64,000 nt of DNA from Lachnospiraceae bacterium (GTDB taxonomy: Bacteria; Bacillota; Clostridia; Lachnospirales; Lachnospiraceae): NCBI GenBank assembly GCA_017621815.1, contig JAGASK010000050.1:23972-87971 (forward strand), in the 5' to 3' direction. Under the pieces are notes generated by a model that saw only the letters and a program-made list of their open reading frames with translations, searched no databases and had not been told where the DNA came from. Shown piece by piece: positions 43,716-63,105 of this stretch (position 1 is its first letter; every line of letters starts with the position of its first letter). The translations under genes were made by a program, and so were the position numbers.

Positions 43716-43738
43716 TAAGGATTAAGGAGGAGCGTAGT

Positions 43739-44950: not shown

Positions 44951-44952
44951 GC

Positions 44953-45699: not shown

Positions 45700-45712
45700 A
45701 GGAGAGAATAAT

Positions 45713-46894
45713 TTGGACAGAATGAAGGAAAAGCTTTTTGAACTTGCAAAAATCGGACAGGATTCGGAGGGCGGAATCAGCCGTGTTTTCGGAAGCGAAG
45801 CCATGAAGGAAGGTCAGCAGGCGGTTGAGAAATATTTTTGTGAATGTGGGCTTAAAACCTGGACGGATTCTGCAGGAAATGTCCATGGCGTGCTTTCATC
45901 AGGCAGGGAGAATGCGAAGGAGATTTTTATCGGTTCTCATATAGATACGGTCAGGCAGGGCGGCATTTTTGACGGCCTGCTTGGAGTTGTTGCAGGAGCG
46001 GAAACGGCAGCAAGGCTTTTAAGGGAGAAGGTTACTCTTACCAAAGATGTTCACATTATTGCCACTAATGGCGAAGAAGGAAATGAGCTTGGAGGAACCT
46101 TCGGCAGCAGGGCAATGATGGGGCTTCTTCCTGTGGATTCAAAGGAATATCTTGAAAAAGCGGCAAGCTTTGGCTTTTCCAAAGAGGATTTATTAAAAGC
46201 AAGTTTAAATACGGACAGGGCAGCATGTTATCTTGAACTGCATATTGAGCAGGGTCCCACGCTTTATAAGCATAAAGAGCAGATTGGCATTGTAACCGGA
46301 ATTGTGGGGCTTAGAAGATATCAGGTGACTGTTTACGGCATCAGTAATCATGCGGGCACAACTATGATGGAAGACAGGGAAGATGCACTTGTTGCGGCTT
46401 CACGGATTATTTTAATGGGAGATGAACTGGCAAGGAAGGCGGGACATCATTTGGTGGAGACTGTAGGTGTGATGAAGGTATATCCCTGCAGTGCACCCGT
46501 GATTCCGAACAGAGTGGAAATGATTCTGGAAATCAGAAATGAAGAGGAGACATTGATGGATGACTTTATGGCAGAGTTTACACAGCAGGCAGAAAGCATG
46601 GCAAGGGTAAAAATAGAACCTATTGTGGCAAAGGCACCTGTTAAATGCAGGGAAGAGCTGGTGAACTTTATAGAAAAGGCCTGTAAAGAAGAAGCGGTAC
46701 GGTATCGGAGGATGCCAAGCGGTGCCACCCATGACGGCAATGCAATGGCTGTCAAAATGCCTGTAGGCATGATTTTTGTGCCGAGTAAGGATGGAATCAG
46801 CCATTCCAAAGATGAATGGACTGAGTGGAAAGATATAGAGTGTGGTATGGAAGTTTTATGGAAAGTGTTACTATTACTGGAAAAGGAGGAATAG
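45713..46894 (+). CDS. M20 family N-carbamoyl-L-amino acid hydrolase / allantoate amidohydrolase-like
   Basis: 393 aa from a TTG at 45713 with GGAGAG six bases upstream; an ATG at 45722 is the alternative. Metal ligands: SHIDTVRQGGIFDGLLG, NGEEGNELGGTF (Glu pair) and LHIEQGPTL; the dimerisation domain contains GISNHAGTTMM. It hydrolyses N-carbamoyl amino acids to amino acid, CO2 and ammonia, or a related ureide. Its placement directly before a hydantoinase and a hydantoin racemase fits an Hyu-type pathway. The gene is 4 bp from the next start. Confidence 0.87.
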   Translation: MDRMKEKLFELAKIGQDSEGGISRVFGSEAMKEGQQAVEKYFCECGLKTWTDSAGNVHGVLSSGRENAKEIFIGSHIDTVRQGGIFDGLLGVVAGAETAARLLREKVTLTKDVHIIATNGEEGNELGGTFGSRAMMGLLPVDSKEYLEKAASFGFSKEDLLKASLNTDRAACYLELHIEQGPTLYKHKEQIGIVTGIVGLRRYQVTVYGISNHAGTTMMEDREDALVAASRIILMGDELARKAGHHLVETVGVMKVYPCSAPVIPNRVEMILEIRNEEETLMDDFMAEFTQQAESMARVKIEPIVAKAPVKCREELVNFIEKACKEEAVRYRRMPSGATHDGNAMAVKMPVGMIFVPSKDGISHSKDEWTEWKDIECGMEVLWKVLLLLEKEE

Positions 46895-46898
46895 AAAA

Positions 46899-48296
46899 TT
46901 GCTGGATTTATGGATTCAAAACGGAAATGTTTTTCTGGATGGATGTTTTTCACTTGCAAGCATAGGAGTAAAGGATGGTAAAATCGTAATAATCGCCGAT
47001 CCGGAGGAAACAATTCCTGCAAAAGAAGTATTGGATTTGGGAGGCCAGTATCTGATACCGGGGGCAATTGATACACATATGCATGTCCGGGATCCGGGAC
47101 ACATTGAAAGGGGTAACTTTTATACGGAAACGCTGGCGGCTGCTGCGGGCGGAGTTACAACCATCATGGAACATCCTATCAGTGTTCCTCCCCAATATAA
47201 TGTGGAGATTCTGGAAAACAGGATAAAGAGGGCACAGGAACAGTGTGTAGTTGATTATTGCTTTTATGGAGCAGCAGGGGGAGAATTTCCGGAAGAAATT
47301 ACGAAGCTGGCAGCGGATGGAAGGATTGTGGCATTCAAAACCTTTCTGCATGCGGCTCCAAACGGACGGGAACAGGAATTCAAAGGCCTTACCATGGCAG
47401 ATGACGGTCAGCTGATAACAGGAATGCAGGAACTGGCAAAAACAGGGCTTATCTGTGCGTTTCATGCGGAAGACAATGACCTGATTCAATACTATATTAA
47501 GAAGTTTAAAGCAGAAGGAAGATGCTCAGGAAGGGATCATGCTTTAAGCCGGCCGCCGGTTACCGAAGTGCAGAGTGTGGAGAGGGTGCTTCGTTTTGCA
47601 AAGGAAACGGGAGCCAGAGTGGAAATTGCCCATGTATCCACGCCTGAGGCTATGGAATTATTAAAAAAAGCAAAAAGGGAAGGCCTGGATGTGTATGCGG
47701 AAACCTGTCCTCATTATCTGTTTCTGAATGAAGATGATTTGGAAAAATACGGACCTTTTGCCAAGTGCAATCCCCCCTTAAGGAAGCAGGAACTGGTGGA
47801 GGAATTGTGGAAATATGTAAATGACGGTACAGTGGATTATATCGGCAGTGACCACAGTCCTTTTCTTTACGAAGAAAAGACCAGGGGACTTGAAGATATT
47901 TTTGCAGCCGTTTCAGGTTTTCCGGGAGTGGACTTAAGGCTTCCTTTGATGCTGAATGCGGTAACGGAAGGAAAGGTAAGTCTTAATAAAGTGGTAGAGC
48001 TTTTATGCGTAAATCCTGCCAGAATATTTGATATCTTCCCAAGGAAGGGAACGATTCGTGTGGGGGCGGACGCAGATTTTGCGGTATTTAATTTAAATGA
48101 AGAAACAATAGTGGATAAAGAGAAGAACTATTCTCATGCAAAGGATATAGCTGTACCTTATGACGGAAGAAAGCTTCACTGCCGGATTACGTATACGGTT
48201 TTAAGAGGACGTATTATCATGAAAAACGGCATAGTAGACGAAAGTGCAAAGGCATACGGACGGCTTATATGTCCTCAGAAAGGAAAAAAAGAATGA
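46899..48296 (+). CDS. Hydantoinase/allantoinase-type cyclic amidohydrolase
   Basis: 465 aa from a TTG at 46899 with AAAAGGAGG nine bases upstream. THMHVRDPGHIERG provides the HxH metal pair and the substrate Arg; the Lys in AFKTFLHA is the expected carbamylated bridge; CAFHAED, EIAHVSTP and GSDHSPF give the remaining His and Asp ligands. This fits the allantoinase/dihydroorotase-III/hydantoinase branch. It opens a cyclic ureide to a carbamoyl compound, which the M20 enzyme upstream would cleave. Its stop overlaps the racemase ATG (ATGA). Confidence 0.87.
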   Translation: MLDLWIQNGNVFLDGCFSLASIGVKDGKIVIIADPEETIPAKEVLDLGGQYLIPGAIDTHMHVRDPGHIERGNFYTETLAAAAGGVTTIMEHPISVPPQYNVEILENRIKRAQEQCVVDYCFYGAAGGEFPEEITKLAADGRIVAFKTFLHAAPNGREQEFKGLTMADDGQLITGMQELAKTGLICAFHAEDNDLIQYYIKKFKAEGRCSGRDHALSRPPVTEVQSVERVLRFAKETGARVEIAHVSTPEAMELLKKAKREGLDVYAETCPHYLFLNEDDLEKYGPFAKCNPPLRKQELVEELWKYVNDGTVDYIGSDHSPFLYEEKTRGLEDIFAAVSGFPGVDLRLPLMLNAVTEGKVSLNKVVELLCVNPARIFDIFPRKGTIRVGADADFAVFNLNEETIVDKEKNYSHAKDIAVPYDGRKLHCRITYTVLRGRIIMKNGIVDESAKAYGRLICPQKGKKE

Positions 48297-48979
48297 AGCA
48301 GAAAATGAAAATTGTAGTCCTTAATCCAAACAGTTCCGAAGAAATGACTCATGCCATAGCAAGAAGTGCAAGAAAATATGCGCAGAACCGTTTTGAAGTG
48401 CTGGCAATTACAGATAACGGAGCTCCTGAATTTATTGACTATCCGGAGGATGTGGCAAAAGCGACTAAGGATATGATGCAGATAATTAAGGATCATGAAT
48501 ATATTGCGGATGCGTTCGTGATTGCATGTCACTGCGACCCAAATGTAAAGCTGCTGCGGCAGATTTCCAAAAAGCCGGTGATTGGAATCGGTGAAGCCTC
48601 CATGCGGCTTGCGGCTATGCTGGGAGCCAGATTTTCTGTGATAACCACCGATTTACATTCGGTAACCCAGAAGTATGAATTGATTCATGAATATGGCCTG
48701 GAGCGTTACTGCGCTTCGGTACGGGTAAGGGATAAAAGCATTGAAGACGAAATGGAAGCTTACGAACAGGCAGCCCGGAAGGCTATAGAAGAAGATTTGG
48801 CAGAGGTAATTGTACTCGGATGTGCAGGACTTTGCGAAATGGCAGAAGAACTGACAAAGCGGCTGAAGGTGCCTGTTCTGGATGGGGTTGTCTGCGGGCT
48901 GATTCTGGCAGAGGGAATGGTAAACGCCGGATACCGGACAAGCAAGGTGCGGTTTTATGCAGGAAAAAATGACCTGTAA
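48293..48979 (+). CDS. Asp/Glu/hydantoin racemase family protein
   Basis: 228 aa from the ATG at 48293. KIVVLNPNSSEEMTHAI is the hydantoin-racemase start. The two catalytic cysteines are in IACHCDPNV and LGCAGLCEM. It would interconvert enantiomers of a cyclic ureide (hydantoin or allantoin) so the stereospecific enzymes upstream can act. It is the last gene of the cluster, followed by a terminator-like hairpin at 49031. Confidence 0.85.
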   Translation: MKQKMKIVVLNPNSSEEMTHAIARSARKYAQNRFEVLAITDNGAPEFIDYPEDVAKATKDMMQIIKDHEYIADAFVIACHCDPNVKLLRQISKKPVIGIGEASMRLAAMLGARFSVITTDLHSVTQKYELIHEYGLERYCASVRVRDKSIEDEMEAYEQAARKAIEEDLAEVIVLGCAGLCEMAEELTKRLKVPVLDGVVCGLILAEGMVNAGYRTSKVRFYAGKNDL

Positions 48980-48983
48980 AATC

Positions 48984-49012
48984 TTGCAAAAATAATTTGA
49001 ATAGTTTATTAT
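48984..49012 (+). promoter_or_regulatory. Promoter of the LuxR-type regulator gene
   Basis: TTGCAA (48984-48989), 17 bases, TATTAT (49007-49012). Expected start near 49018, about 13 bases before the hairpin at 49031. Confidence 0.5.
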
Positions 49013-49030
49013 ATATGTGAAATTGCAAAG

Positions 49031-49064
49031 AAGCAGTGACTCTTTAGGGGTTTACTGCTTTTTT
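49031..49064 (+). terminator. Intrinsic terminator in the leader of the LuxR gene
   Basis: AAGCAGT (49031-49037) pairs with ACTGCTT (49054-49060), with partial pairing inside, followed by a T-run. It ends 37 bases before the LuxR ATG. It may terminate the ureide operon, attenuate luxR, or both. Confidence 0.65.
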
Positions 49065-49101
49065 GCTTTATAAGATTATGGGACATTGCAGGAGGAAGGC
49101 C

Positions 49102-49857
49102 ATGAAAACGTTAGACACTAATGACTGGCTGGTACTGAACAGCATTATTTATAAAATTTATACGGTGGAAGATGAGAAAAAAATGCGGATTGCTTTTTTA
49201 GAGCAGCTGAAAATGATTATTGATTTTGATGCTGCTGATTTTTATCTGGCCAAAGATGAGGGAGTAAACGGAGAAACAGGTCTGGTAAATCCGGTGGCGT
49301 ATAATTGCGACTGCGTATCGGGAGATTATGATGCGCTGGATTACAGCCGCGGTATTTTGTACAGCGGAAAAAGCATGGTATACCGGGAAACAGATATTAT
49401 TGATGATGAGAAAAGAAAAATCAGCGAATATTACCAAAAGGTATATAAGCCCAATAACTGGCACTATTCCATGCAGATAATATTGGCAAAGGATAAACAG
49501 TTTCTGGGTGTGGCCACACTGTACCGTTCCATTGGAAAGGATAATTTTGAGTATGATGATATCTTTCTGGTGGATATGCTGCGTGACCATTTATCCTTCC
49601 GTCTCAGTAAGGAAAGAAAGAACCGCCTGGAAAATCCCCATAAGTGGACTATCATGGAGGCTGCGGAGGAATTTCAGCTTACCAGGCGTGAGGAGATGGT
49701 GCTGCAGTGCATTATGGAAGGAAAGGATAAGGAAGAAATCTGCAATGAGCTGGTAATCAGCGTCAATACTTTTAAGAAACATTCTTTGAATATATATCGT
49801 AAGCTTGGAGTGAATAACAGGGTACAGCTGTTCAAAAAAATATTGGAAAAGGAGTAA
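49102..49857 (+). CDS. LuxR-family (GerE HTH) transcriptional regulator
   Basis: 251 aa from the ATG at 49102 (GGAGGAAGG upstream). The N-terminal 180 residues look like a GAF/PAS-type sensor fold (FDAADFYLAKDEG, IILAKDKQFLGVATLYRS). The C-terminal HTH reads LTRREEMVLQCIMEGKDKEEICNELVISVNTFKKH and ends with YRKLGVNNR, standard for GerE domains. It is not a response regulator, since no Asp receiver is present. It lies between the ureide and polyamine clusters and may control either. Confidence 0.82.
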   Translation: MKTLDTNDWLVLNSIIYKIYTVEDEKKMRIAFLEQLKMIIDFDAADFYLAKDEGVNGETGLVNPVAYNCDCVSGDYDALDYSRGILYSGKSMVYRETDIIDDEKRKISEYYQKVYKPNNWHYSMQIILAKDKQFLGVATLYRSIGKDNFEYDDIFLVDMLRDHLSFRLSKERKNRLENPHKWTIMEAAEEFQLTRREEMVLQCIMEGKDKEEICNELVISVNTFKKHSLNIYRKLGVNNRVQLFKKILEKE

Positions 49858-49922
49858 TTATTATGAAGTAATACTACCCAAAAGGAGCAGAAAAATTACG
49901 AAAGTGAATCATTGTAATAAAT

Positions 49923-49951
49923 TTGTGAAAGGTTTATAGTTGCATTAAATT
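49923..49951 (+). promoter_or_regulatory. Promoter of the PII-potABCD operon
   Basis: TTGTGA (49923-49928), 17 bases, TAAATT (49946-49951); expected start near 49958, ten bases before the hairpin at 49968. A moderate match. Confidence 0.4.
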
Positions 49952-49967
49952 AAATGATATTTAATGA

Positions 49968-50002
49968 AAGCAACGGAGCTTGAGGGCTTCGTTGCTTTTT
50001 TT
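49968..50002 (+). terminator. Leader terminator of the PII-potABCD operon
   Basis: A 12-bp stem (49968-49979 with 49986-49997, one G-U pair), loop TTGAGG, then a T-run. The left arm includes AAAGCAACGGAGC, an exact 13-base match to the leader at 58354 upstream of the putrescine aminotransferase gene. Confidence 0.75.
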
Positions 50003-50029
50003 ATCTGACAATAGGAAGGAGCTGTGTGA

Positions 50030-50377
50030 ATGAAAGAAATGATTATCATAATCCGGCCGGAAAAACTGGAGAAGGTAAAGCAGATTTTTGATGAAGCGGG
50101 CTTAGGTGGTATTTCCATTACCAGTGTTATGGGATGCGGAACCCAGCGGGGACTGGAGACAGAACCTGAAATGCAGGGAATAAAAGCAAGTGTCAATCTG
50201 CTGCCTAAAATCAGGGTGGAAATTGTAGTAGAGGATGATAAGGTGGAAGAAATCATTACTGATTTGCGTGACAAGGTAGCTACAGGGCATGTGGGTGACG
50301 GAAAAATTTTTATCAGAAACGTGGAAGATGCCGTTCGTATCAGAACGGGTGAGCGGGGCAATAAAGCTCTTTATTAA
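50030..50377 (+). CDS. PII-family nitrogen regulatory protein lacking the T-loop tyrosine (first copy)
   Basis: 115 aa. Gln39 (GCGTQRG), the B-loop TGHVGDGKIF (85-94) and the C-loop RIRTGERG (103-110) match PII, so ATP and 2-oxoglutarate binding should be kept. The T-loop (41-60) is two residues longer than E. coli GlnB and has no tyrosine, so it cannot be uridylylated at Tyr51. PII proteins report nitrogen/energy status by binding partner proteins. No amtB or glnA is nearby; instead it is followed 27 bp later by the polyamine ATPase. NifI-type relatives are an alternative label. Confidence 0.88.
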   Translation: MKEMIIIIRPEKLEKVKQIFDEAGLGGISITSVMGCGTQRGLETEPEMQGIKASVNLLPKIRVEIVVEDDKVEEIITDLRDKVATGHVGDGKIFIRNVEDAVRIRTGERGNKALY

Positions 50378-50404
50378 ATCAGACGGCAAAAAGAGGTGAC
50401 AGTT

Positions 50405-51520
50405 GTGGAAGAAAAGAAAATAATTGTTGAAATTAAAAATGTGAATAAAGTTTATCAGGGTACCAATGCGGTAGTAAAGGACTTGAATTTGAATGTATAT
50501 GAAGGGGAATTCCTGACCCTGCTTGGTTCATCGGGCTGCGGTAAAACAACAACTCTGCGCATGATAGCGGGCTTTGAGGATATTACAAGCGGAACCATAT
50601 TGGTAGAGGGAGAAAATATTGAGGATAAGGAGCCCTTTGAAAGGAATGTCAATACTGTCTTCCAGACTTATGCCCTTTTCCCCCATATGACCGTATTTGA
50701 TAATGTGGCCTATGGTTTGAAAATAAAGAAAAAGCCTAAGGGTGAAATTAAAACGAAGGTTATGGAAATGCTTGAACTGGTTCAGCTCGGAGGTTTTGAA
50801 AAAAGATATCCTTCCCAGCTTTCCGGCGGACAGAAACAAAGAGTTGCCATAGCAAGGGCGCTGATTAACCAGCCGAGAGTGCTTCTTTTGGATGAGCCTC
50901 TGGGGGCTCTGGATTTAAAACTCAGGAAGCAGATGCAGCTGGAGCTTAAAAGACTGCAGAGAAAATTAAAGATAACATTTATTTATGTTACCCATGATCA
51001 GGAAGAAGCCCTGTCCATGAGTGACAGGATTGCCATTATGAATGACGGTATTTTACAGCAGGTCGGCACGCCTGTTGAAATTTATGAGCAGCCGGCAACC
51101 AGATTTGTAGCCTCCTTTATCGGAGAGACCAATCTCTTTGACGGCGCTGTAAGCAGCGTGGACGGGGATAAGGTTTCCGTATCCATTGAAAGCGGCGTTA
51201 TTACGGGAAAAGGTACGGATTTTAAGGTTGGTGAGATGGTTGCGGTATCCGTAAGACCCGAAAGAATCAAGTATTCCGTTAGGCCGGTGGAAGGCTTTAC
51301 AGTTCCGGCTGCGGTAAAGGAACAGGTTTATGTAGGTTCCGTGCTGAAAACCATTGTGGTTTTGCCCAATGGAAATGAAATCAGGATTGAGAGGCTGGCA
51401 GGTGAAGAACTTCCGGCAGAGGGCATGGTTTATCTGTACTGGAAGGATGAAGACGCTAAAATTATTCATTCCTTTGATAACAATATTTTTGCAGCTATTG
51501 ATAATATTCAGCTTGCGTAA
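50405..51520 (+). CDS. potA: Spermidine/putrescine ABC transporter ATP-binding protein
   Basis: 371 aa from a GTG at 50405 (AAGAGG eight bases upstream; a GTG at 50396 is the alternative). Walker A GSSGCGKTT, signature LSGGQKQR, Walker B VLLLDEPLGALDLKLR and a TOBE domain in the last 100 residues (VRPERIKYS) are typical of PotA. It hydrolyses ATP to drive polyamine uptake with PotB, PotC and PotD. It follows the first PII gene by 27 bp, suggesting the PII protein may bind this transporter. Confidence 0.9.
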   Translation: MEEKKIIVEIKNVNKVYQGTNAVVKDLNLNVYEGEFLTLLGSSGCGKTTTLRMIAGFEDITSGTILVEGENIEDKEPFERNVNTVFQTYALFPHMTVFDNVAYGLKIKKKPKGEIKTKVMEMLELVQLGGFEKRYPSQLSGGQKQRVAIARALINQPRVLLLDEPLGALDLKLRKQMQLELKRLQRKLKITFIYVTHDQEEALSMSDRIAIMNDGILQQVGTPVEIYEQPATRFVASFIGETNLFDGAVSSVDGDKVSVSIESGVITGKGTDFKVGEMVAVSVRPERIKYSVRPVEGFTVPAAVKEQVYVGSVLKTIVVLPNGNEIRIERLAGEELPAEGMVYLYWKDEDAKIIHSFDNNIFAAIDNIQLA

Positions 51521-51548
51521 GGCAGTGCTGGGAAGGAGACAGGAAAAG

Positions 51549-52418
51549 ATGAAGAAAAAGAAAAATTTCAGGGGCAATACCCTTCCGGCACTTGTAATGG
51601 TGGGTCCGGTAACCTTGTGGCTTCTTTTGCTGGTAGCAGTGCCGCTTATTTATGTGGTATTTATGACCTTTTGCAGTTTGGATGCCAATTACAATCTGGT
51701 TTTTACCTTTACCCTGGATAATTATAAACGGCTGTTTGATGCCAATTACGTGCAGATATATGCACAGTCGCTGCTCATTGCTTTTTCCACCACATTGATT
51801 TGTATTATAGCAGGATATCCTTTTGCTTTTCTTATAGCCAGGGTATTTACCAAAAAGAAAGCCATTTTGTATATGCTGGTAATTATTCCCTTCTGGACCA
51901 ATTCGCTGATCCGTATTTATGGGTGGAGAACTTTTCTCGGCAGCAGCGGCTGGCTGAATAATATGTTGACAAAGCTTCACATTATCAGTGAGCCGGCAGA
52001 ATTTTTGTTTAACAGGGGAACCATTATTCTGGGTATGGTATACTGCCTGATTCCCTACATGATTCTGCCTTTATATACGGCAGTGGAAAAACTGGATAAA
52101 AGCATGATAGAAGCATCGAAAGACCTTGGTGCTAAGGGACCGGCTACTTTTTTAAAGGTAATTCTTCCCATGACGGCAAGCGGTATTTTTTCCGGCTCCA
52201 TTATGGTGTTTATACCCTGCCTCGGGTATTTCTTTGTAGCGGATATACTTGGCGGAGGCAAATCGGATGTCATAGGAAATCTGATTGAAAGACAGTTTCA
52301 GAGCGGCAATAACTGGCCTCTGGGCGCAGCGCTGTCTGTTATCCTGATAGCAATTACTCTGCTTCTTGTAAAAATATATCAGATATGCGGCGGGGATATG
52401 GAGAATCTGGGAGTATAG
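51549..52418 (+). CDS. potB: Spermidine/putrescine ABC transporter permease PotB
   Basis: 289 aa from the ATG at 51549 (GGAAGGAGA upstream); the frame is open further upstream only inside potA. Six predicted membrane segments start after RGNTLPALVMVGPVTLWLL. The EAA loop is EASKDLGAKGPATFLKVILP. FWTNSLIRIYGWRTFL is conserved in PotB. It is followed 24 bp later by potC. Confidence 0.9.
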   Translation: MKKKKNFRGNTLPALVMVGPVTLWLLLLVAVPLIYVVFMTFCSLDANYNLVFTFTLDNYKRLFDANYVQIYAQSLLIAFSTTLICIIAGYPFAFLIARVFTKKKAILYMLVIIPFWTNSLIRIYGWRTFLGSSGWLNNMLTKLHIISEPAEFLFNRGTIILGMVYCLIPYMILPLYTAVEKLDKSMIEASKDLGAKGPATFLKVILPMTASGIFSGSIMVFIPCLGYFFVADILGGGKSDVIGNLIERQFQSGNNWPLGAALSVILIAITLLLVKIYQICGGDMENLGV

Positions 52419-52442
52419 GTTGAAAAATAGGAGGACTTGAAC

Positions 52443-53243
52443 ATGAACAGAAGAATAAAAGAAAAAATCAAATATACGGCGGGAATTATCTATTGTGCAC
52501 TGGTTTATGTTTTTCTGTTTCTGCCTATCGTAGTAATTGTGGTAAACTCCTTTAACGCTACTACCTCAAAGCCTTATCTTTCCTGGAAGGGCTTCACCTT
52601 TGCATGGTATGGTAAATTGTTTGAAAATACAGTACTGCTTGCATCCTTCGGGCATACGGTTTTACTGGCGGTTGTCAGTACACTGCTTTCCACGGCCATC
52701 GGCACTTTGGCGGCGGTAGGAATGTATAAATATCATTTTAAGGGCAAGGGGCTTATTGACGGCCTGTTATATATACCGGTAGTTATTCCGGAAATAGTGC
52801 TCGGTATTTCGCTGCTGACGGTATTTGCCAAGGCAAGTGTTCCAAGGGGAATGATTACGCTGGTTCTGGCCCATGTAACCTTCAGTATACCCTTTGTAAT
52901 CTTTAATATCAGGGCAAGGCTTTCGGGATATGATAATTCCATTGAGGAGGCTTCCATGGATTTGGGAGCAAACAGGGTGTATACCTTTTTTCATATAACC
53001 CTGCCGGTGCTGGCGCCGGGCATCGGGGGAGGTGCACTTCTTGCCTTTACACTTTCCATTGATGATGTTATTATCAGCTATTTTACGAACGGACAGGTAA
53101 AGACCTTCCCTCTTAAGGTAATGGAAAGCATTAAGAGCGGTGTGGCGCCGGATGTAAATGCACTTTCAACCTTGATTTTAGTGGGAACTTCTCTTTTAGT
53201 CATACTGACTCAAAGCGGAATTTTCTCTAAACATAAAAAATAA
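52443..53243 (+). CDS. potC: Spermidine/putrescine ABC transporter permease PotC
   Basis: 266 aa from the ATG at 52443 (AGGAGG upstream). Hydrophobic spans are interrupted by VVIVVNSFNATTSKPYLSW and the EAA loop EASMDLGANRVYTFFHITLP; LSIDDVIISYFTNG is a PotC hallmark. It pairs with PotB to form the polyamine channel. Confidence 0.92.
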   Translation: MNRRIKEKIKYTAGIIYCALVYVFLFLPIVVIVVNSFNATTSKPYLSWKGFTFAWYGKLFENTVLLASFGHTVLLAVVSTLLSTAIGTLAAVGMYKYHFKGKGLIDGLLYIPVVIPEIVLGISLLTVFAKASVPRGMITLVLAHVTFSIPFVIFNIRARLSGYDNSIEEASMDLGANRVYTFFHITLPVLAPGIGGGALLAFTLSIDDVIISYFTNGQVKTFPLKVMESIKSGVAPDVNALSTLILVGTSLLVILTQSGIFSKHKK

Positions 53244-53282
53244 GTTATGGTACTGCATAAGCGGTACGGACAGGAGGATGTT

Positions 53283-54347
53283 ATGAAAAAGAAAATTATG
53301 AGTCTGGTTTTAGCAGCAGCTTTAACTGTGTCGGTGGTATTGACAGGCTGCGGAAGCAAGGAAACATCAGCAAATGCAGATGCGGGAGAACTTAATTTGT
53401 TTATCTGGACAGAATATGTGCCGGACAGTGTATTTGACAAATTTACGGAAGAAACAGGAATTAAGGTAAATGTAACCACTTTTTCTTCTAATGAAGATAT
53501 GCTGGCAAAAGTGAAGTCGGAAGCACCCGGCGCTTATGATATTATCCAGCCCAGCGATTATATGGTGTCACAGCTGATTGCTCAGGATATGCTGGCAGAG
53601 CTTGATAAGGATGCTCTCACCAATCTTTCCAATATCGGAGAGGAATATCTTGACCCTGTGTATGACCCGGGCAATGTATATTCAGTGCCTTATCAGGGCG
53701 GTGTGGCTGCCATTGCAGTTAATACTGACAAAGTAGATGTTGAAATTACCAGCTATGACGATTTATTTGACCCGGCGCTTGCCAATTCCATTGTGCTTTT
53801 AGATGATTTTCGTGCCATTATCGGTATGACAGCAAGGAGCATGGGCTACAGCATGAATGAAACCGACCCGGCAAAACTTGCAGAAATCAAGGAAAAATTG
53901 CTTACACTTAAATCCAATGTCAAGCTGTACGATTCTGATTCGCCTAAGTCGGCTTTGATTTCCGGGGACTGTTCCGTAGGAATGATTTGGAATGCCGAAA
54001 TTGCTTTATCCATGGCGGAAAACAGCAATATTGAAGTTGTGTTCCCGAAGGAGGGGCCTTACGTATTTATGGATAACTGGTGCATCACCAAAGAAAGTCC
54101 TAACTATGATAATGCCATGAAGTTTATTAATTTCATGATGGACCCGGAGGTAGTGCAGATGGTGCTTGCAGAGTTTCCTTATCTTAATCCCAACAAGACT
54201 GCAGTAGAAGCTATGGGTGAAGAATATTCAGGCAATCCCGCAAAGAATCCTCCCGCAGAAGTAATTGCTTCCGGTGAATATGTGGAAAATCTGGATGTGG
54301 ATACACTTGCCGTTTATGATGAAATGTGGACGGAATTGAAGAAATAA
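53283..54347 (+). CDS. potD: Spermidine/putrescine-binding lipoprotein PotD
   Basis: 354 aa from the ATG at 53283 (AGGAGG upstream). The lipobox is LTGCGS. The mature start ELNLFIWTEYVPDSVFDKF and later IIQPSDYMVSQL, YSVPYQGG and VFMDNWCITKES match PotD/PotF-type polyamine-binding proteins; the Trp and acidic residues line the polyamine site. Whether it prefers putrescine, spermidine or agmatine is not decidable, but the enzyme context favours putrescine or agmatine. Confidence 0.9.
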   Translation: MKKKIMSLVLAAALTVSVVLTGCGSKETSANADAGELNLFIWTEYVPDSVFDKFTEETGIKVNVTTFSSNEDMLAKVKSEAPGAYDIIQPSDYMVSQLIAQDMLAELDKDALTNLSNIGEEYLDPVYDPGNVYSVPYQGGVAAIAVNTDKVDVEITSYDDLFDPALANSIVLLDDFRAIIGMTARSMGYSMNETDPAKLAEIKEKLLTLKSNVKLYDSDSPKSALISGDCSVGMIWNAEIALSMAENSNIEVVFPKEGPYVFMDNWCITKESPNYDNAMKFINFMMDPEVVQMVLAEFPYLNPNKTAVEAMGEEYSGNPAKNPPAEVIASGEYVENLDVDTLAVYDEMWTELKK

Positions 54348-54365
54348 GCGGAAAGGAGAGCGTAA

Positions 54366-55844
54366 ATGGAGATTAAGAAAAATTACATTGACGGGCAGTG
54401 GGTGGAAGGCACCTCAGGTAAGGTGATTGACGTTATCAATCCCGCAACGGGCCAGGTATTTGCCATGGTATCGGAAAGCAGTGTGGAGGATGTCAGGAAA
54501 GCCATAGCGGCGGCAAAAAAATCCTTTTATGTGACGAGACAATGGCGGGATATGGATTCTCAGGCAAGAGGTGATATCCTGTTGAAGATTGCCGGCTTAA
54601 TTGAAAGAGATGCAGCAGAGATTGCCATGCTGGATACATTGGATAACGGGAAGCCTTTAAGAGAAGCAGAAGGGGATATTGATGACGGCATCCATACCTT
54701 TCGTTATTATGCAGGACTGATTAAAGCACCCTATGGCGGCGTTTATGATGTAAACAGCAACTTCGGAAAAATGCATAGTTATACGGTACATGAACCGGTA
54801 GGTGTATGTGCACAGATTACTCCATGGAATTATCCTTTTCTTATGAGTGTATGGAAGCTGGTTCCCGCACTGGCAGCAGGCAACAGCATTGTATTTAAAC
54901 CAAGTCCCAAGGCTCCCTTAAGCACCATTAAGCTGTTTGAACTTTTTGAGGAAGCAGGTCTTCCCGCTGGATGCGTTAATCTGGTGCAGGGTGATGCAGA
55001 GGTGGGAACCGAAATGGGTGAAAATAAAGATGTGGATATGATTACCTTTACAGGAAGCACCAGGGTGGGTCAGAGCCTGATGAAAGCCGCAGCAGGCAAT
55101 CTTAAAAAAATCGGCCTGGAGCTTGGAGGCAAATCTCCTAATATTATTTTTGCGGATGCGGATATGGACGGCGCTGTGGAATGGGCAATGATAGGCATTT
55201 TCTTTAACCAGGGTGAGGTGTGTTCTGCAGGCAGCAGGATTATCATTGAGGAATCTATAAAGGATGAATTTGTAGAAAAGCTGGCGAAGAAAGCAAATGC
55301 CATGACAATCGGAAATCCTGTCAATAATCCTGATTTGGGTCCGGTTATTACAAAAGAGCACATGGAAAGAGTTCTTTCCTATATTAAAAGCGGCATTGAG
55401 GAAGGCGCTACCCTTGTATGCGGCGGAGAAAGATATACGGAAGGGGAATGTGCCGGGGGCTACTTTATCCGTCCCACTATATTTACCGATTGTAAGCCTG
55501 ATATGAAGATAGTCAGAGAGGAAATCTTTGGTCCTGTTGTTACCGTGCAGACCTTTAAAACAGAGGAAGAGGCCATTGCCCTTGCCAACGATACCGATTA
55601 CGGCCTTGCAGGTGCGGTGTTTACTTCTGATGTGACCAGAGCGCATAGAGTCATCAGTGAAATCAGAGCCGGAATTACCTGGATTAACTGCTATAATCCC
55701 ACCTTCAATGAAGCGCCCTGGGGCGGTTATAAAATGAGCGGGCTTGGCAGAGAGCTGGGCGTTCACGGACTGGAAGAATATCAGGAAGTAAAGCAGATTA
55801 ACATTAATCTGACACCCGGTGTGCTCGGCTGGTATGAGCATTAA
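54366..55844 (+). CDS. Aldehyde dehydrogenase, probable 4-aminobutyraldehyde dehydrogenase
   Basis: 492 aa, NAD(P)-dependent ALDH fold. The catalytic Cys is in FFNQGEVCSAGSR, the general-base Glu in LELGGKSPN, and PWNYPFLMSVWKLVPALAAG and FTGSTRVGQSL bind cofactor. It follows potD by 18 bp inside a putrescine block, so oxidation of 4-aminobutyraldehyde to GABA is the best-supported role; betaine-aldehyde dehydrogenases look similar. It lies directly before the second PII gene. Confidence 0.85.
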   Translation: MEIKKNYIDGQWVEGTSGKVIDVINPATGQVFAMVSESSVEDVRKAIAAAKKSFYVTRQWRDMDSQARGDILLKIAGLIERDAAEIAMLDTLDNGKPLREAEGDIDDGIHTFRYYAGLIKAPYGGVYDVNSNFGKMHSYTVHEPVGVCAQITPWNYPFLMSVWKLVPALAAGNSIVFKPSPKAPLSTIKLFELFEEAGLPAGCVNLVQGDAEVGTEMGENKDVDMITFTGSTRVGQSLMKAAAGNLKKIGLELGGKSPNIIFADADMDGAVEWAMIGIFFNQGEVCSAGSRIIIEESIKDEFVEKLAKKANAMTIGNPVNNPDLGPVITKEHMERVLSYIKSGIEEGATLVCGGERYTEGECAGGYFIRPTIFTDCKPDMKIVREEIFGPVVTVQTFKTEEEAIALANDTDYGLAGAVFTSDVTRAHRVISEIRAGITWINCYNPTFNEAPWGGYKMSGLGRELGVHGLEEYQEVKQININLTPGVLGWYEH

Positions 55845-55868
55845 ACAAATTGTCAAGGAGAGATAAGA

Positions 55869-56219
55869 ATGAAAGAACTGGAAATTATTATAAAGCCGGA
55901 AAAACTGGAGACAGTGAAAAGCATATTGGATGAATTTCACTGCGGAGGTATGACAATTTCAAGTGTCATGGGCTGCGGTACGCAGAGAGGTAATATTGAT
56001 GAGGAAACCAACGTAATTAAGGGAATGAAGACCAATATCAATCTGCTGCCCAAAATCAGGGTAGAGGTAGTGGTGGATGAGGAAAAGGTGGAGAACTTAA
56101 TTGCCAGAATCAGTGAAAAAGTAGCAACCGGAAATGCCGGAGACGGGAAGATATTTATCCGCAGCATTGAGGAAGTGGTTCGAATCAGAACCGGTGAGAG
56201 AGGAAAGAAAGCTCTTTAA
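55869..56219 (+). CDS. PII-family nitrogen regulatory protein lacking the T-loop tyrosine (second copy)
   Basis: 116 aa. It is clearly paralogous to 50030-50377: SVMGCGTQRG, NLLPKIRVE, the B-loop ATGNAGDGKIFIR and RIRTGERG are shared. Its T-loop (GNIDEETNVIKGMKTNINLL) has one more residue and also no Tyr. Ligand sites are intact. It lies 24 bp after the aldehyde dehydrogenase and 46 bp before aguB. Two PII copies in one operon suggest separate partners, or a heterotrimer as in NifI pairs (inference). Confidence 0.88.
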   Translation: MKELEIIIKPEKLETVKSILDEFHCGGMTISSVMGCGTQRGNIDEETNVIKGMKTNINLLPKIRVEVVVDEEKVENLIARISEKVATGNAGDGKIFIRSIEEVVRIRTGERGKKAL

Positions 56220-56265
56220 AAGCAGAAGCCGGTCCGCATTTTTATGTATGGAAAGGAGAAAAGCT

Positions 56266-57132
56266 ATGCGTAAGGTCAGGGTGGCGGCAACCCAGATGGC
56301 ATGTTCCTGGGATGCAGAGGCAACACTTAAAAAAGCGGAAGGACTTGTAAGGAAAGCGGCAGGGCAGGGAGCACAGATTATTTTATTGCAGGAGCTGTTT
56401 GAAAGACCATATTTTTGTCAGAATCATAATCCGGATTATCTTGAACTGGCTACTTCTTTGGAAGAAAATCCTGCTGTACAGAGGTTTAAAAGGGCAGCGG
56501 CGGAATTAAGGGTTGTGCTTCCCATATGCTTTTATGAAAGGGCAGGAAATACGGCATTTAATACGGTTGCCATGATTGATGCTGACGGCAGTGTCCTTGG
56601 GATTTACCGGAAAACCCATATTCCGGACGGTGTACCCTATGCGGAAAAATTTTATTTTACACCGGGGGATACCGGTTTTAAAGTCTGGAAAACAGCTTAC
56701 GGTAATATAGGGCTTGGCATCTGCTGGGATCAGTGGTTCCCGGAAACGGCAAGGTGTCTTGCTCTTAAGGGTGCGGAGCTGCTGCTTTATCCTACTGCTA
56801 TCGGCAGTGAAATCAATCTTCCCATTGATTCCAAAGACCACTGGCAGCGCTGTATGCAGGGGCATGCGGCAGCAAACGTCATGCCGGTAATCGCTTCTAA
56901 CAGAATCGGGACGGAAAAGGATGAAATTCACGGAACAGAAATGACCTTTTACGGTTCATCTTTTATTACGGATGAAACCGGCGAGAAAATTGCGGAAGCA
57001 AATCGGGTGGATGAAACGGTTCTTGTTGCGGAATTTGATTTGGATGCAATTGCCGTAAGGCGCAGGCAATGGGGGATTTTCCGTGACCGCAGGCCGGAAA
57101 TGTACGGCACGCTTATGACTCATGGTGAGTAA
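56266..57132 (+). CDS. aguB: N-carbamoylputrescine amidase
   Basis: 288 aa from the ATG at 56266 (AAAGGAG upstream); the frame is open further back only inside the PII gene. It is a nitrilase-superfamily enzyme with the Glu-Lys-Cys triad in LLQELFERPYFCQ, YRKTHIPDGVPYAEKFYF and GICWDQWFPE. The long motifs match AguB, which cleaves N-carbamoylputrescine to putrescine, CO2 and ammonia. It is followed 24 bp later by aguA. Confidence 0.92.
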   Translation: MRKVRVAATQMACSWDAEATLKKAEGLVRKAAGQGAQIILLQELFERPYFCQNHNPDYLELATSLEENPAVQRFKRAAAELRVVLPICFYERAGNTAFNTVAMIDADGSVLGIYRKTHIPDGVPYAEKFYFTPGDTGFKVWKTAYGNIGLGICWDQWFPETARCLALKGAELLLYPTAIGSEINLPIDSKDHWQRCMQGHAAANVMPVIASNRIGTEKDEIHGTEMTFYGSSFITDETGEKIAEANRVDETVLVAEFDLDAIAVRRRQWGIFRDRRPEMYGTLMTHGE

Positions 57133-57156
57133 TCTGGCGGAAAAAGAGGAAAAAAT

Positions 57157-58260
57157 ATGGCGAAGAGAATTTACTGCTCTACTCCGAAGGAAGACGGCTT
57201 TTATATGCCGGGAGAATTTGAAAAACAGCAGTGCATATGGATGATTTGGCCGGAAAGGCCGGACAACTGGCGCTCCGGTGCCGTACCTGCGCAGAAAGCA
57301 TATGCTGATGTAGCGAAAGCCATTGTGCAGTTTGAACCTGTTATTATGCTTGCCTCAAAGAAGCAGTTTGAAAATTGCAGGAAGCAGCTTCCTTTGGAAA
57401 TAAAAGTAATAGAAATGGAAAGTGACGATGCCTGGGCAAGAGATGTGGGCCCTTCCTTTCTGATTAATAAGGAAGGGAAATTAAGGGCCTGTGACTGGAC
57501 CTTTAATGCCTGGGGCGGAGATTTGGATGGGTTGTATAAGCCCTGGGATAAGGATGATAAAATTGCGCGGCAGATATGTGAAATTGCAGGAGCGGATTTT
57601 TACCGGACGGAAGGGTTTGTGCTGGAAGGCGGTTCCTTTCATGTGGATGGGGAAGGGACAGTTATGGTCACGGAAATGTGTCTTCTCAGTAAAGGAAGAA
57701 ATCCGGAAATGTCAAAAGAGGAGATAGAAAAGAAGCTTTGCGATTATCTGAATTGTGAAAAGGTAATCTGGCTGAAAGACGGAATTGACCCGGAGGAAAC
57801 TAACGGACACATTGATGATGTTGCCTGCTTTACAGCGCCGGGCGAAGCTGCGTGCATTTATACGGAAGATGAGACACACTCCTTTTATCAGGCAGCCCGG
57901 GCGGCTTACCGTACTCTTTGCGGAGCAGTGGATGCAAAGGGCAGGCGGCTTAAGGTGCATAAGGTATGCTGCACGAAAAAGAATGTATATTTTGAGGACA
58001 GCTTCAGGATTGAAAATAATGATTGTTCCATAGACAGAAAAGGCGGTGACCTTTGCATTGCCTCTTACCTGAATTTTTTGATTGTAAACGGAGGCGTGAT
58101 TGTTCCCCAGTACGGTGATGAAAACGATGCACTGGCACTAAAGCAGATTCAGGAAATATTCCCGGAAAGAAAAGCAGTTGGCGTCATGACAAGGGAAATT
58201 GTTTATGGAGGCGGGAACATTCACTGTATTACCCAGCAGCAGCCTTTAGAAATGAAATAA
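57157..58260 (+). CDS. aguA: Agmatine deiminase
   Basis: 367 aa. It starts KEDGFYMPGEFEKQQCIWM, the classic AguA start. DDAWARDVGPSF, GGSFHVDGEG, NGHIDDVACF and the catalytic Cys357 in GGGNIHCITQQQ are conserved, with Cys at the position known for the family. It converts agmatine to N-carbamoylputrescine and ammonia. With AguB it turns agmatine into putrescine. Confidence 0.95.
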   Translation: MAKRIYCSTPKEDGFYMPGEFEKQQCIWMIWPERPDNWRSGAVPAQKAYADVAKAIVQFEPVIMLASKKQFENCRKQLPLEIKVIEMESDDAWARDVGPSFLINKEGKLRACDWTFNAWGGDLDGLYKPWDKDDKIARQICEIAGADFYRTEGFVLEGGSFHVDGEGTVMVTEMCLLSKGRNPEMSKEEIEKKLCDYLNCEKVIWLKDGIDPEETNGHIDDVACFTAPGEAACIYTEDETHSFYQAARAAYRTLCGAVDAKGRRLKVHKVCCTKKNVYFEDSFRIENNDCSIDRKGGDLCIASYLNFLIVNGGVIVPQYGDENDALALKQIQEIFPERKAVGVMTREIVYGGGNIHCITQQQPLEMK

Positions 58261-58304
58261 TCTAAAAGTAGTATATATAACTCAAAATAAGTAAAAAGAT
58301 GGTG

Positions 58305-58344
58305 CCTGAAACTAATTGTTTCAGGACAGATATGAGCGTAAAGT
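58305..58344 (+). promoter_or_regulatory. Promoter and palindromic operator of the putrescine aminotransferase operon
   Basis: CCTGAAAC-N5-GTTTCAGG (58305-58325) is a perfect 8-bp inverted repeat that overlaps the -35 TTGTTT (58316-58321). TAAAGT (58339-58344) lies 17 bases downstream. The arrangement fits a repressor site on a promoter. Confidence 0.5.
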
Positions 58345-58359
58345 AGTAGATGTAAAGCA

Positions 58360-58392
58360 ACGGAGCGGTAAAGGTTATCGCTTCGTTTTTTT
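58360..58392 (+). terminator. Leader terminator of the putrescine aminotransferase operon
   Basis: A 12-bp stem (58360-58371 with 58375-58386, G-U pairs included), short AGG loop, then seven T. The 5' side contains AAAGCAACGGAGC, identical over 13 bases to the PII-potABCD leader at 49967-49979. It starts about nine bases after the predicted transcription start. Confidence 0.7.
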
Positions 58393-58444
58393 GGTAAAGG
58401 TAATTATCCATAAAGGCGGAAATTAAAAAACGGAGGTATGAAAT

Positions 58445-59797
58445 ATGAGTTATGAACAGGTAAGTAAGGATTTGGAAAAGGTAATTGGCTATATTCACAG
58501 CGATGAGTTGTCTGATGCGGAAAAGGAGACCATGACAAAAGAAACTGTGGAATATTTTGATACCTATGTAAGCCCGGGCTGGCTGAAATACAGAAAAAGT
58601 GTTTCCACTAATTCGGCAGTTCTGGAATGGAAAGACCATGACGGTATCTGCGAAGGACTTTACGGAGAAGAGTTTATTGATTGTCTGGGCGGCTTCGGCA
58701 TTTATACCTGCGGACACAGAAACAGTTATATTTTAGATACGGTGAAGGCCCAGCTTGACCATCAGGCTCTGCATTCCCAGGAGCTTTTGGATCCTTTAAG
58801 AGGCTATCTGGCTAAGGCGGTAGCGGATATTACGCCCGGCGATTTGGAAAAATGCTTTTTCACAAACGGCGGTGCGGAGGCAGTGGAAATGGCATTAAAA
58901 TTAGCCAGAATCGCAACGGGCGGCAGATGGTATATTTCTACTGTGGGCGCTTTTCACGGCAAGTCAATGGGTGCTATATCCATGGGCGGTAAGGGTACTT
59001 ACAGAGTTCCCTATACTCCTATGGTTCAGCAGGTACAGCATGTGGAGTATGGTAATGCGGAGGATACCAGGAAGGCAATCAGAAATCTGGCAGCAGTAGG
59101 TGAAAAGGTAGCGGCAGTGATTGTAGAGCCTATACAGGGTGAAGCAGGTGTCATTGTTCCTCCTGAAGGATATCTTACCAAACTTCGTGAGATTTGTGAT
59201 GAATATGGTGTGGCGCTTATTTTTGATGAGATTCAGTGCGGTATGGGACGTACCGGAACTATGTGGAGATGTGAGGCAGAAGGTGTTGTTCCGGATATTA
59301 TGACTTTCGGAAAAGCTTTCGGCGGCGGTATCATGCCGATAACGGGCATTATCTGCAGACCTCATATGTGGACACAGGAACTGATTGACAATCCATGGCT
59401 CCTTGGTTCCCCCACCTTCGGCGGAAACCCTGTATGCTGCAGTGCGGCGCTGGCAACTATTAAATATATGATTGACAATGATATACCGGGACAATGTAAG
59501 GAAAAGGGCGAATATCTGATTGCAGGCCTTAAGTCTTTGCAGGAGAAATACCCTACGGTAATAGGTGATGTGAGGGGTGTGGGACTGATGCTGGCAGTAG
59601 AATTTGCAGCCAGTGATGTGGGATACAGCGTTGCCAAGGGCCTGTTTGCAAGGGGCGTTATGACAGCCGGTACTTTAGTGAACGCAAAGTGCATCCGGTT
59701 TGAGCCTTCAGCAGTGATTACCAGAGAGCAGATTGATACTGTAATTGAAAGAATGGATGCAGCACTTGCCGATACAAAGAAGGAATTTAATTTATAA
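58445..59797 (+). CDS. Putrescine aminotransferase (PatA/YgjG-like)
   Basis: 450 aa, class III PLP aminotransferase. CLGGFGIYTCGHRNSYI, FFTNGGAEAVEMALKLAR, IFDEIQCGMGRTG and the PLP Lys290 in TFGKAFGGGIMP are visible, and the N-terminal extension and YVSPGWLKYRKS resemble YgjG. It transfers the amino group of putrescine to 2-oxoglutarate, giving 4-aminobutyraldehyde. AGGTATGA-type site; the next aminotransferase starts 15 bp after its stop. Confidence 0.85.
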   Translation: MSYEQVSKDLEKVIGYIHSDELSDAEKETMTKETVEYFDTYVSPGWLKYRKSVSTNSAVLEWKDHDGICEGLYGEEFIDCLGGFGIYTCGHRNSYILDTVKAQLDHQALHSQELLDPLRGYLAKAVADITPGDLEKCFFTNGGAEAVEMALKLARIATGGRWYISTVGAFHGKSMGAISMGGKGTYRVPYTPMVQQVQHVEYGNAEDTRKAIRNLAAVGEKVAAVIVEPIQGEAGVIVPPEGYLTKLREICDEYGVALIFDEIQCGMGRTGTMWRCEAEGVVPDIMTFGKAFGGGIMPITGIICRPHMWTQELIDNPWLLGSPTFGGNPVCCSAALATIKYMIDNDIPGQCKEKGEYLIAGLKSLQEKYPTVIGDVRGVGLMLAVEFAASDVGYSVAKGLFARGVMTAGTLVNAKCIRFEPSAVITREQIDTVIERMDAALADTKKEFNL

Positions 59798-59811
59798 AAG
59801 GAGATGTTATT

Positions 59812-61182
59812 ATGTTACGGGAAGCATTACCTGAAATTGTGACCGGAGTTGTTCCGGGACCTAAATCAAAAGCATTATTGGAAAGAAAGGAAAAGGCGCT
59901 GCCGGCAGCCCTTGGAAAGGCTGTTTATCCCGTTTGTATTGCAAAGGGAGAGGGAGCCATGCTGGAGGACCTGGACGGCAACAGATTCCTGGACTGGATT
60001 GGCGGTGTGGGTGTTTTGAATATCGGTTATTCCAGACCGGAAGTGGTAGAAGCGGTAAAAGAACAGGCTGATAAATATTTTCATACCATTATTAATGTTA
60101 TCACTCATGAGGGTTATGTGGAGCTGGCGGAAAAGCTTAACAGTATCGTTCCTGTAAGGGGAGAGGAAAAGAAAACATATTTTGCCAATTCCGGTGCTGA
60201 AGCAGATGAAAACGCCATTAAAATTGCCAGGGCTTATACGAAGAGAAGCAATGTAATCTGTTTCTCAGGTGCGTTTCACGGCAGAACCAACCTGACAATG
60301 GCACTTACCGCTAAAAAGGCTTATTCCGTGGATATGGGCCCTTTTCCCTCAGGCATTTACAGGGCGGAATATCCTTATTTGTACCGGGCGCCTAAAGGCT
60401 ATACAGAAGAAGAGGCCGTTACCTATTACATAGATAAATTGTACCGCCTGTTTGATGAAGCTTCACCTGCTAAGGATATTGCCTGCATGATTATTGAGCC
60501 TTTGCAGGGCGAAGGAGGATTTATACCGGCACCCATCAGCTGGGTAAAGGCAGTCCGTAAAATCTGTGACGAAAACGGCATTCTGATGATTGCTGATGAA
60601 GTGCAGAGCGGTTTTTGCAGAACAGGAAAGATGTTTGCGTCTGATTACTGGGCAGAAGCAGGAATACAGCCGGATATCATTACCATGGCAAAATCCCTGG
60701 GAGGCGGCGTACCTGTCAGCGGTATCTGCGCAAGGGCGGAAATCATGGATGCGGCTCTTCCGGGAACTATCGGAGGCACCTATTGCGGCAATCCCCTTGC
60801 CTGCGCTTCCGCCCTTAAGGTCATTGAAATTTATGAAAAAGAAAATCTGGCAGACCGTTCCATGGAAATCGGCAGGAAAGTCCGTGCTGCCTATAAGGAA
60901 TTTGCTTTAAAGTATCCTGTAATCGGAGATATCCGTGGTCTTGGCGGCATGATTGGAATGGAATTTGTGAAGGATAAGGAAACGAAAGAGCCATTCCCTG
61001 AATTTGTAAGTGCCATGGTCAGGAATGCGGTTCAAAGAGGGCTTCTGATCGAAAATGCAGGTACCTATGGAAATGTAATCCGTTTCCTTGCACCTCTTGT
61101 CATGACAGATGAACAACTTGCGGCCGGACTTGCCATATTTGAAGAATGCCTTAAGGTAACAACTAAGCAGCTGTGTAAGTAG
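59812..61182 (+). CDS. Class III aminotransferase, probable 4-aminobutyrate aminotransferase
   Basis: 456 aa. DWIGGVGVLNIGYSRPEVVE, YFANSGAEADENAIKIAR, IADEVQSGFCRTGKMF and PLP Lys294 in TMAKSLGGGVPVSG define a class III enzyme of the GabT type. In this operon it would convert GABA to succinate semialdehyde. Ornithine or diaminobutyrate aminotransferase are possible alternatives. AAAGGAG precedes the ATG. Confidence 0.82.
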   Translation: MLREALPEIVTGVVPGPKSKALLERKEKALPAALGKAVYPVCIAKGEGAMLEDLDGNRFLDWIGGVGVLNIGYSRPEVVEAVKEQADKYFHTIINVITHEGYVELAEKLNSIVPVRGEEKKTYFANSGAEADENAIKIARAYTKRSNVICFSGAFHGRTNLTMALTAKKAYSVDMGPFPSGIYRAEYPYLYRAPKGYTEEEAVTYYIDKLYRLFDEASPAKDIACMIIEPLQGEGGFIPAPISWVKAVRKICDENGILMIADEVQSGFCRTGKMFASDYWAEAGIQPDIITMAKSLGGGVPVSGICARAEIMDAALPGTIGGTYCGNPLACASALKVIEIYEKENLADRSMEIGRKVRAAYKEFALKYPVIGDIRGLGGMIGMEFVKDKETKEPFPEFVSAMVRNAVQRGLLIENAGTYGNVIRFLAPLVMTDEQLAAGLAIFEECLKVTTKQLCK

Positions 61183-61205
61183 AAGATTAAAATAAGGAAA
61201 AATTT

Positions 61206-61233
61206 GAGCCTGCGGATGAAAAACTGCAGGCTC
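61206..61233 (+). terminator. Weak stem-loop between the GABA aminotransferase and flavin protein genes
   Basis: GAGCCTGC (61206-61213) pairs with GCAGGCTC (61226-61233); only TT follows. Probably partial attenuation or mRNA processing. Confidence 0.5.
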
Positions 61234-61253
61234 TTAAAGGAATCAGGTGAAAA

Positions 61254-61733: not shown

Positions 61734-61758
61734 ATAAGATTGAAAGAAGGAAGCGAAA

Positions 61759-63094: not shown

Positions 63095-63105
63095 TGGTGT
63101 TCATG

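Follow-up and report, generated by a model that had tools for sequence, protein, structure and literature searches.

PotN-like PII proteins in a polyamine transporter gene run of a Lachnospiraceae bacterium

The stretch of DNA analysed here, hereafter the window, comprises 64,000 nucleotides (nt) from the draft genome of a Lachnospiraceae bacterium (GCA_017621815.1, contig JAGASK010000050.1, positions 23,972 to 87,971; estimated genome completeness 92%) and contains two genes for PII proteins, PII-1 and PII-2, in a run with the polyamine transporter genes potABCD. The order on the forward strand is a LuxR-family regulator gene, a terminator, PII-1, potA, potB, potC, potD, an aldehyde dehydrogenase gene, PII-2, aguB and aguA, followed after another terminator by a putrescine aminotransferase-like gene (patA) and a gamma-aminobutyric acid (GABA) aminotransferase-like gene (Table 1). 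With the starts chosen here, neighbouring genes between PII-1 and aguA are separated by 3 to about 46 nt, and because these gaps are short we read the genes as a probable single operon which would include PII-2. An earlier note on this DNA had described the PII pair as bracketing potABCD and the aldehyde dehydrogenase gene; PII-1 does stand ahead of them, but PII-2 lies inside a run that reaches aguA. All 25 NCBIfam models shown for the aldehyde dehydrogenase score under their cut-offs, and the searches with aguB used 56260 as start.

Table 1. Genes and leader features of the PII-pot gene run and its neighbours in the window.
Feature	Position	Strand	Basis or remark
ANTAR-like site, loose form, overlapping a terminator, before the LuxR gene	49024..49035	+	TGCAAAGAAGCA; stem 18; 75 nt before the LuxR start used
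LuxR-family regulator	49099..49857	+	GerE PF00196
Terminator-like hairpin, PII-pot leader	49966..49999	+	15-pair stem, then T run; ends 30 nt before PII-1
Exact EutV/ANTAR 13-nt consensus AGCAANGRRGCUY, overlapping the 5' arm of the terminator	49969..49981	+	site AGCAACGGAGCTT; consensus from PMC3369931
PII-1, PotN-like PII, Tyr-free T-loop 2 residues longer	50030..50377	+	open reading frame, Pfam, PDB match, alignment, tree
potA, ATPase with C-terminal tail FDNNIFAAIDNIQLA	50396..51520	+	TIGR01187 over cut-off
potB, permease	51561..52418	+	start chosen by us; listed open reading frame begins at 51354
potC, permease	52437..53243	+	profile match
potD-like substrate-binding protein	53247..54347	+	profile matches
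Aldehyde dehydrogenase, substrate not fixed by the models	54366..55844	+	best NCBIfam model betaine-aldehyde dehydrogenase
PII-2, PotN-like PII, Tyr-free T-loop 4 residues longer	55869..56219	+	open reading frame, Pfam, PDB match, alignment, tree
aguB, N-carbamoylputrescine amidase	56266..57132	+	TIGR03381 over cut-off; start read by eye
aguA, agmatine deiminase	57157..58260	+	TIGR03380 over cut-off
ANTAR-like site, 11/13 letters, with terminator, before patA	58356..58387	+	motif and terminator scan
Putrescine aminotransferase-like (patA)	58445..59797	+	NF008570 over cut-off, PF00202
GABA aminotransferase-like	59812..61182	+	best models under their cut-offs

The two PII genes reported in the earlier note are complete open reading frames, each preceded by a stretch resembling a ribosome-binding site (read by eye), and their products are 64% identical to each other. 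Both exceed the curated cut-off of 25 for the P-II family PF00543 (1.8e-25 and 89.7 bits for PII-1, 3.6e-26 and 91.9 bits for PII-2). The note had also recognised preserved PII ligand motifs and long T-loops without Tyr, and this agrees with our results: Gln39, the lysine ahead of strand 3, GDGKIF and RIRTGERG are kept in both proteins, and the segment from Gln39 to the lysine has 22 residues in PII-1 and 24 in PII-2 with no Tyr in either, compared with 20 to 21 residues in PII proteins linked to the ammonium transporter AmtB. The best PDB match of both is 7O4X (1.1e-28 and 3.1e-29), the PotN protein of Lentilactobacillus hilgardii, whose loop likewise has 22 residues and no Tyr. PotN is treated together with the C-terminal domain of PotA in an article that cites Iskhakova et al., FEBS J 2022, for it (PMC9692440). 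The earlier note knew of no described PII control of Pot transporters; this is superseded by PotN, published in 2022.

The linkage between PII and pot genes is conserved. PII-1 has matches at E <= 1e-10 in 212 of the 299 genomes of a family sample, and 18 of the 36 loci fetched from the upper part of this match list are pot-linked. PII is followed by potABCD in all of the best 11 family loci outside the window, ten of which also contain a LuxR gene. In a second, named collection, whose genomes partially overlap with the family sample, we analysed the best 80 of at least 549 confirmed relatives and found potA (at least 45% identity) within 2.5 kb of PII in 48 of them. For the best-ranked loci of this collection (L071 to L124) the proportion is 47/54, and the seven exceptions include three loci where PotA is cut or broken (L081, L110, L111), two with potABCD about 3.5 to 7.5 kb upstream of PII (L099, L103), one which begins 62 nt ahead of PII (L102), and one with AmtB in place of potA (L114). 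The reverse search gave an adjacent PII in 21 of the 30 best PotA loci (window included), with all 12 top-scoring loci among them, while the lower-ranked PotA loci (20 chosen, 17 past the length filter) had no PII in flanks of about 1.5 kb (0/17). Chance co-location of PII and pot genes is ruled out by these family, named-collection and reverse counts.

The window thus shows encoding with pot transporter genes in Firmicutes, which we take to be the defining trait of the PotN subfamily. The presence of one PII beside a Pot importer is conserved and, with PotN, has been described before; the PII-transporter pair known from one lactobacillus is here extended to Lachnospiraceae and other Clostridia as a conserved module. 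Gene order varies within the module: PII-potD-potABC with aldehyde dehydrogenase and patA genes further on was found in L077, L080, L086, L091, L104 and L106, and a LuxR match stands beside PII in 32 of the 46 named pot-PII loci whose upstream flank spans 900 bp or more. In Bacilli, PotN as query gave matches at E <= 1e-12 in 23 of 395 genomes, and potA (at least 45% identity to the window PotA, flanks of about 1.5 kb) in 0/27 fetched loci, which do not include the L. hilgardii operon. A plasmid search with PotN returned 84 records, all below 60% identity. One genome (G017) has a type I PII-pot set (L043) and a type II PII-potA set (L048; the two types are defined below) on one contig about 20 kb apart, with an aldehyde dehydrogenase gene near the former and patA, gabT and aguA near the latter.

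The 183 PII genes in these loci gave 167 distinct sequences of usable length, which we compared according to their neighbours. In AmtB-linked PII, the segment from Gln39 to the lysine has 20 residues in 80 of 84 proteins and 21 in the other four, and contains Tyr in 80/84. The pot-class PII (n = 63), i.e., those with potA within 2.5 kb plus PotN by our own assignment, have 20 to 31 residues in this segment, more than 20 in 59 proteins, and any Tyr in 10. A further 20 PII have neither neighbour; PII-2 is among them, as are six type I proteins whose loci are cut or displaced. In a tree built with the T-loop columns removed and an 82% identity filter (111 rows), PII-1 and PII-2 both fall in a starred type I pot clade of 27 rows (support 100/99), PotN 7O4X in a starred type II pot clade of 11 rows (support 100/97), and AmtB-linked PII outside both. 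A single pot clade uniting the two types is not rejected by the approximately unbiased (AU) test (p 0.237). The type I clade is, judged by these sequences, a separate and well supported group, and we count it among the new parts of the system. Because the linkage is conserved and the tree sets PII-1 and PII-2 apart from AmtB-linked PII, the dedicated PII pair proposed in the earlier note withstood both challenges which that note had named, a lack of linkage in other genomes and clustering with GlnK.

GlnK gates the AmtB transporter. PII-1 and PII-2 could in principle be ordinary GlnK-type proteins for AmtB that were placed here by chance, as they have the general PII fold and ligand motifs, and the pot clades have AmtB-linked PII from this bacterial family as near neighbours in the tree. 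However, neither has the normal-length T-loop with a modifiable Tyr expected of GlnB or GlnK, AmtB-linked PII have shorter, Tyr-bearing loops, another clade and AmtB as partner, and the pot linkage is conserved. This genome encodes its AmtB on a different contig, as a fusion with a PII of its own; the remark in the earlier note that no amtB lies nearby therefore holds for the window but not for the genome. We consider this explanation very improbable, and a GlnK/AmtB identity was ruled out on T-loop class and tree position. PF00543 has four matches in the draft genome, i.e., PII-1, PII-2, the AmtB-fused PII and a PII-like domain encoded next to a DUF1538 protein; the last is at L004:19-1803, where the gene for the DUF1538 membrane protein precedes one for a 225-residue protein with the PII-like domain at its C-terminus. 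NifI1 and NifI2 are encoded by two PII genes side by side, whereas the window PII genes are five genes apart. A NifI-like pair was dropped, as no match to the NifH P-loop motif was found within 6 kb of either PII gene.

The partner of the PII proteins might be recognised from PotA itself. We aligned 97 distinct PotA rows and scored a C-terminal tail as a pattern like F..AV[ED]N after residue 359, defined only once the tails had been inspected. The tail occurs in 52/53 type I-linked rows (counting the window, L099 and L103 as linked; the lone miss shows no tail residues), 13/18 type II-linked rows (one tail-less gene is entered twice, in L047 and L173) and 1/26 unlinked rows, and thus in 65/71 PII-linked rows in total. 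Type II-linked and unlinked PotA are broadly similar in nucleotide-binding-domain identity (means 0.68 and 0.63), while the C-terminal-domain identity to the window PotA is 0.32 on average (0.16-0.41) for type II-linked and 0.20 (0.13-0.35) for unlinked PotA. Where two potA genes surround one PII (L047/L173 and L048), the tail-less copy is upstream of PII and the tailed copy downstream; these double-potA loci are found at L048:5147-7800 and L047:886-3483. Since the tail is on PII-linked PotA and nearly absent from unlinked PotA, PotA is pointed to as the PII target. The tail, which we also count as new, is on this sequence pattern a likely docking element and can be tested by peptide.

The leader upstream of PII-1 suggests how the genes may be regulated. 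It resembles EutV-type ANTAR target RNA in that the AGCAANGRRGCUY site overlaps the terminator (PMC3369931), and the P2 mini-hairpin with its A1/G4 hexaloop is also found. A loose form of the motif is present in 38/64 pot-PII leaders, compared with a mean of 1.8 and a maximum of 5 in 200 shuffles, and by our sorting in 37/54 type I leaders. The third pair of the mini-hairpin stem is paired in 34/38 distinct sites (shuffle mean 27.5, 0/2000 as high), while the next pair outwards shows no excess (15 paired, shuffle mean 17.3); the 38 sites were chosen by pattern and the shuffles ignore kinship. The draft genome contains nine exact 13-mers and none of the reversed pattern, and only the sites before PII-pot and before the amtB-glnK fusion run into a terminator-like stretch (by eye). 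Its single ANTAR match is encoded after a glutamine synthetase gene, and in the genomes of the 11 best loci there is likewise one ANTAR match each, beside a glutamine synthetase-like gene (39-74% identity) in 11/11. P-II and ammonium transporter genes are listed among predicted ANTAR targets, and the word putrescine is absent from the main text of the same article (PMC3369931). A literature search covering mostly open-access papers returned no report of ANTAR control of pot operons or PotN-like PII in Clostridia, and the ANTAR-like leader common to PII-pot and amtB-glnK looks new. Rfam families at gathering thresholds gave no match in 48000-64000. Within 26745-29595, a further ANTAR-like site with terminator stands before genes for a DUF6282 protein and a SBP_bac_5 solute-binding protein.

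Unlike EutV-type RNA, the window leader has no second hexaloop hairpin (P1), and a canonical dual-hairpin ANTAR site was dropped for this reason. The hairpin might instead be the plain terminator of the LuxR gene, with no antitermination switch, as P1 is not conserved in pot-PII leaders, the loose motif also occurs on other terminators of the same loci, and a strict scan detects a terminator in 21/44 LuxR-flanked leaders, missing that of the window, which another scan found. In contrast, the motif is on 13/20 terminators just upstream of PII, and some of the other sites with motif and terminator precede the starts of LuxR, aguB, aguA, aldehyde dehydrogenase, patA or potD genes; others precede unnamed genes. 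The restriction of exact 13-mer plus terminator to PII-pot and amtB-glnK in this genome also argues against a plain terminator, which we regard as a real possibility, albeit one we lean away from.

On the sequence evidence, it is fairly likely that PII-1 and PII-2 are PII proteins of the PotN-like kind, devoted to the PotABCD importer encoded with them in one operon, with expression probably set by ANTAR antitermination. The module is real, conserved and functionally sensible, and in kind it has been known since 2022; its most likely function would be to gate amine import in the manner of PotN, with expression controlled by nitrogen. PotN is said to be unresponsive to 2-oxoglutarate and to meet PotA in a manner dependent on adenine nucleotide. 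The PII trimer would bind ATP or ADP, and perhaps 2-oxoglutarate too, and its lengthened, Tyr-free T-loop, for which no uridylylation is expected, would dock onto the C-terminal domain and tail of PotA. Docking would most likely halt amine import when the energy or nitrogen state gives no call for it. Through AguA and AguB the operon could make putrescine from agmatine, and transamination with aldehyde oxidation would turn putrescine into a source of nitrogen and carbon. The likely effector of antitermination at the leader is the sole ANTAR protein found in the genome, which would place the uptake of amines under an RNA-level nitrogen switch of the kind that also serves ammonium uptake. Should this be true, it might help explain the timing of polyamine uptake and burning in such bacteria. 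Compared with PotN as described, the window has a second PII gene, a leader of ANTAR-like type and surroundings of amine catabolism. Cyanobacterial PII similarly acts on ABC importers, NrtABCD and UrtABCDE, via their nucleotide-binding domains, but as described it is a global protein, acts on other transporters and is not borne by the transporter operon (PMC10710835).

Several observations weigh against this reading. The window proteins belong to type I and PotN to type II. Another genome of the same genus has a single PII-1 match (3e-21), weaker than the pot-linked matches. As for PotA, the tail pattern was set after inspection, 5/18 type II-linked rows lack the tail, and the unlinked L163 and L167 overlap the linked range of C-terminal-domain identity. 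The PotA tree shows about four linkage changes with two independent pairs, and because linked PotA are interrelated and only these two pairs are independent, kinship accounts for much of the association between tail and linkage. Among the leaders, type II carries the loose motif in 1/10 only, the exact 13-mer is in 7/44 only, the P1 hairpin is upstream in 5/44 with 2.9 expected, and 21/89 other terminators of the same loci bear the loose motif.

The earlier note had instead proposed a PII pair that responds to 2-oxoglutarate and acts on PotA as well as on the catabolic enzymes, i.e., the aldehyde dehydrogenase and AguB. This agrees with the presence of Gln39 and the lysine of the 2-oxoglutarate site in 63/63 pot-class PII, with aldehyde dehydrogenase or patA genes within 12 kb in 14/34 pot loci whose downstream flank is 9 kb or longer, and with the position of PII-2 between the aldehyde dehydrogenase gene and aguB. 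However, the catabolic genes differ among loci whereas PotA is constant, so we do not favour an action of PII on the aldehyde dehydrogenase or AguB, and in some type I loci the place of the catabolic genes is taken by genes of the ornithine-cyclodeaminase family and flavin oxidase-like genes. Moreover, PotN keeps the same Gln, and the title of its description names an energy-state sensor (FEBS J, doi 10.1111/febs.16431). We therefore consider the 2-oxoglutarate proposal improbable. The loci concerned are L087:14390-20313, L117:14542-19058 and L103:6514-9983, in which a type I PII-pot run is followed by genes of the ornithine-cyclodeaminase/mu-crystallin family ('tyramine oxidase subunit B' models); L087 and L117 also have flavin oxidoreductase genes, which in L087 resemble those of sarcosine oxidase subunits. 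Because of these downstream genes of ornithine-cyclodeaminase and oxidase type, the importer substrate at these three loci may not be a polyamine.

Within the preferred reading of PotN-like proteins dedicated to PotABCD, the role of the second copy has to be considered separately. A second pot-type PII was found in 0/48 named pot loci within the sequenced flanks examined, and two PII genes in one pot gene run, absent from the other loci examined, look new. PII-2 could be a spare from another pot operon or an old duplication with no role of its own, leaving PII-1 as sole regulator, and its rarity fits this, as does its grouping with L118 and not with PII-1 (support 99/81 and 99/92 in two trees). 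Yet both proteins are intact, and it is PII-2 that has the conserved type I T-loop, while that of PII-1 is diverged and its terminal branch is 0.57 against a median of 0.077. A sister origin of the two by duplication is also not rejected (AU p 0.241 and 0.105). A spare PII-2 is thus conceivable but somewhat doubtful. More speculatively, the type I clostridial PII-pot operons may form the amine arm of a glnA-linked ANTAR regulon with a P2-only antiterminator, where PII docks on the PotA tail and mixed PII-1/PII-2 trimers integrate two signals; this combined model is in our view unlikely.

Upstream of the LuxR gene, at 39760-48979, the window carries a set of genes resembling amide or hydantoin degradation (amidohydrolase, amidase-like, aminotransferases and racemase-like), named from their open reading frames only.

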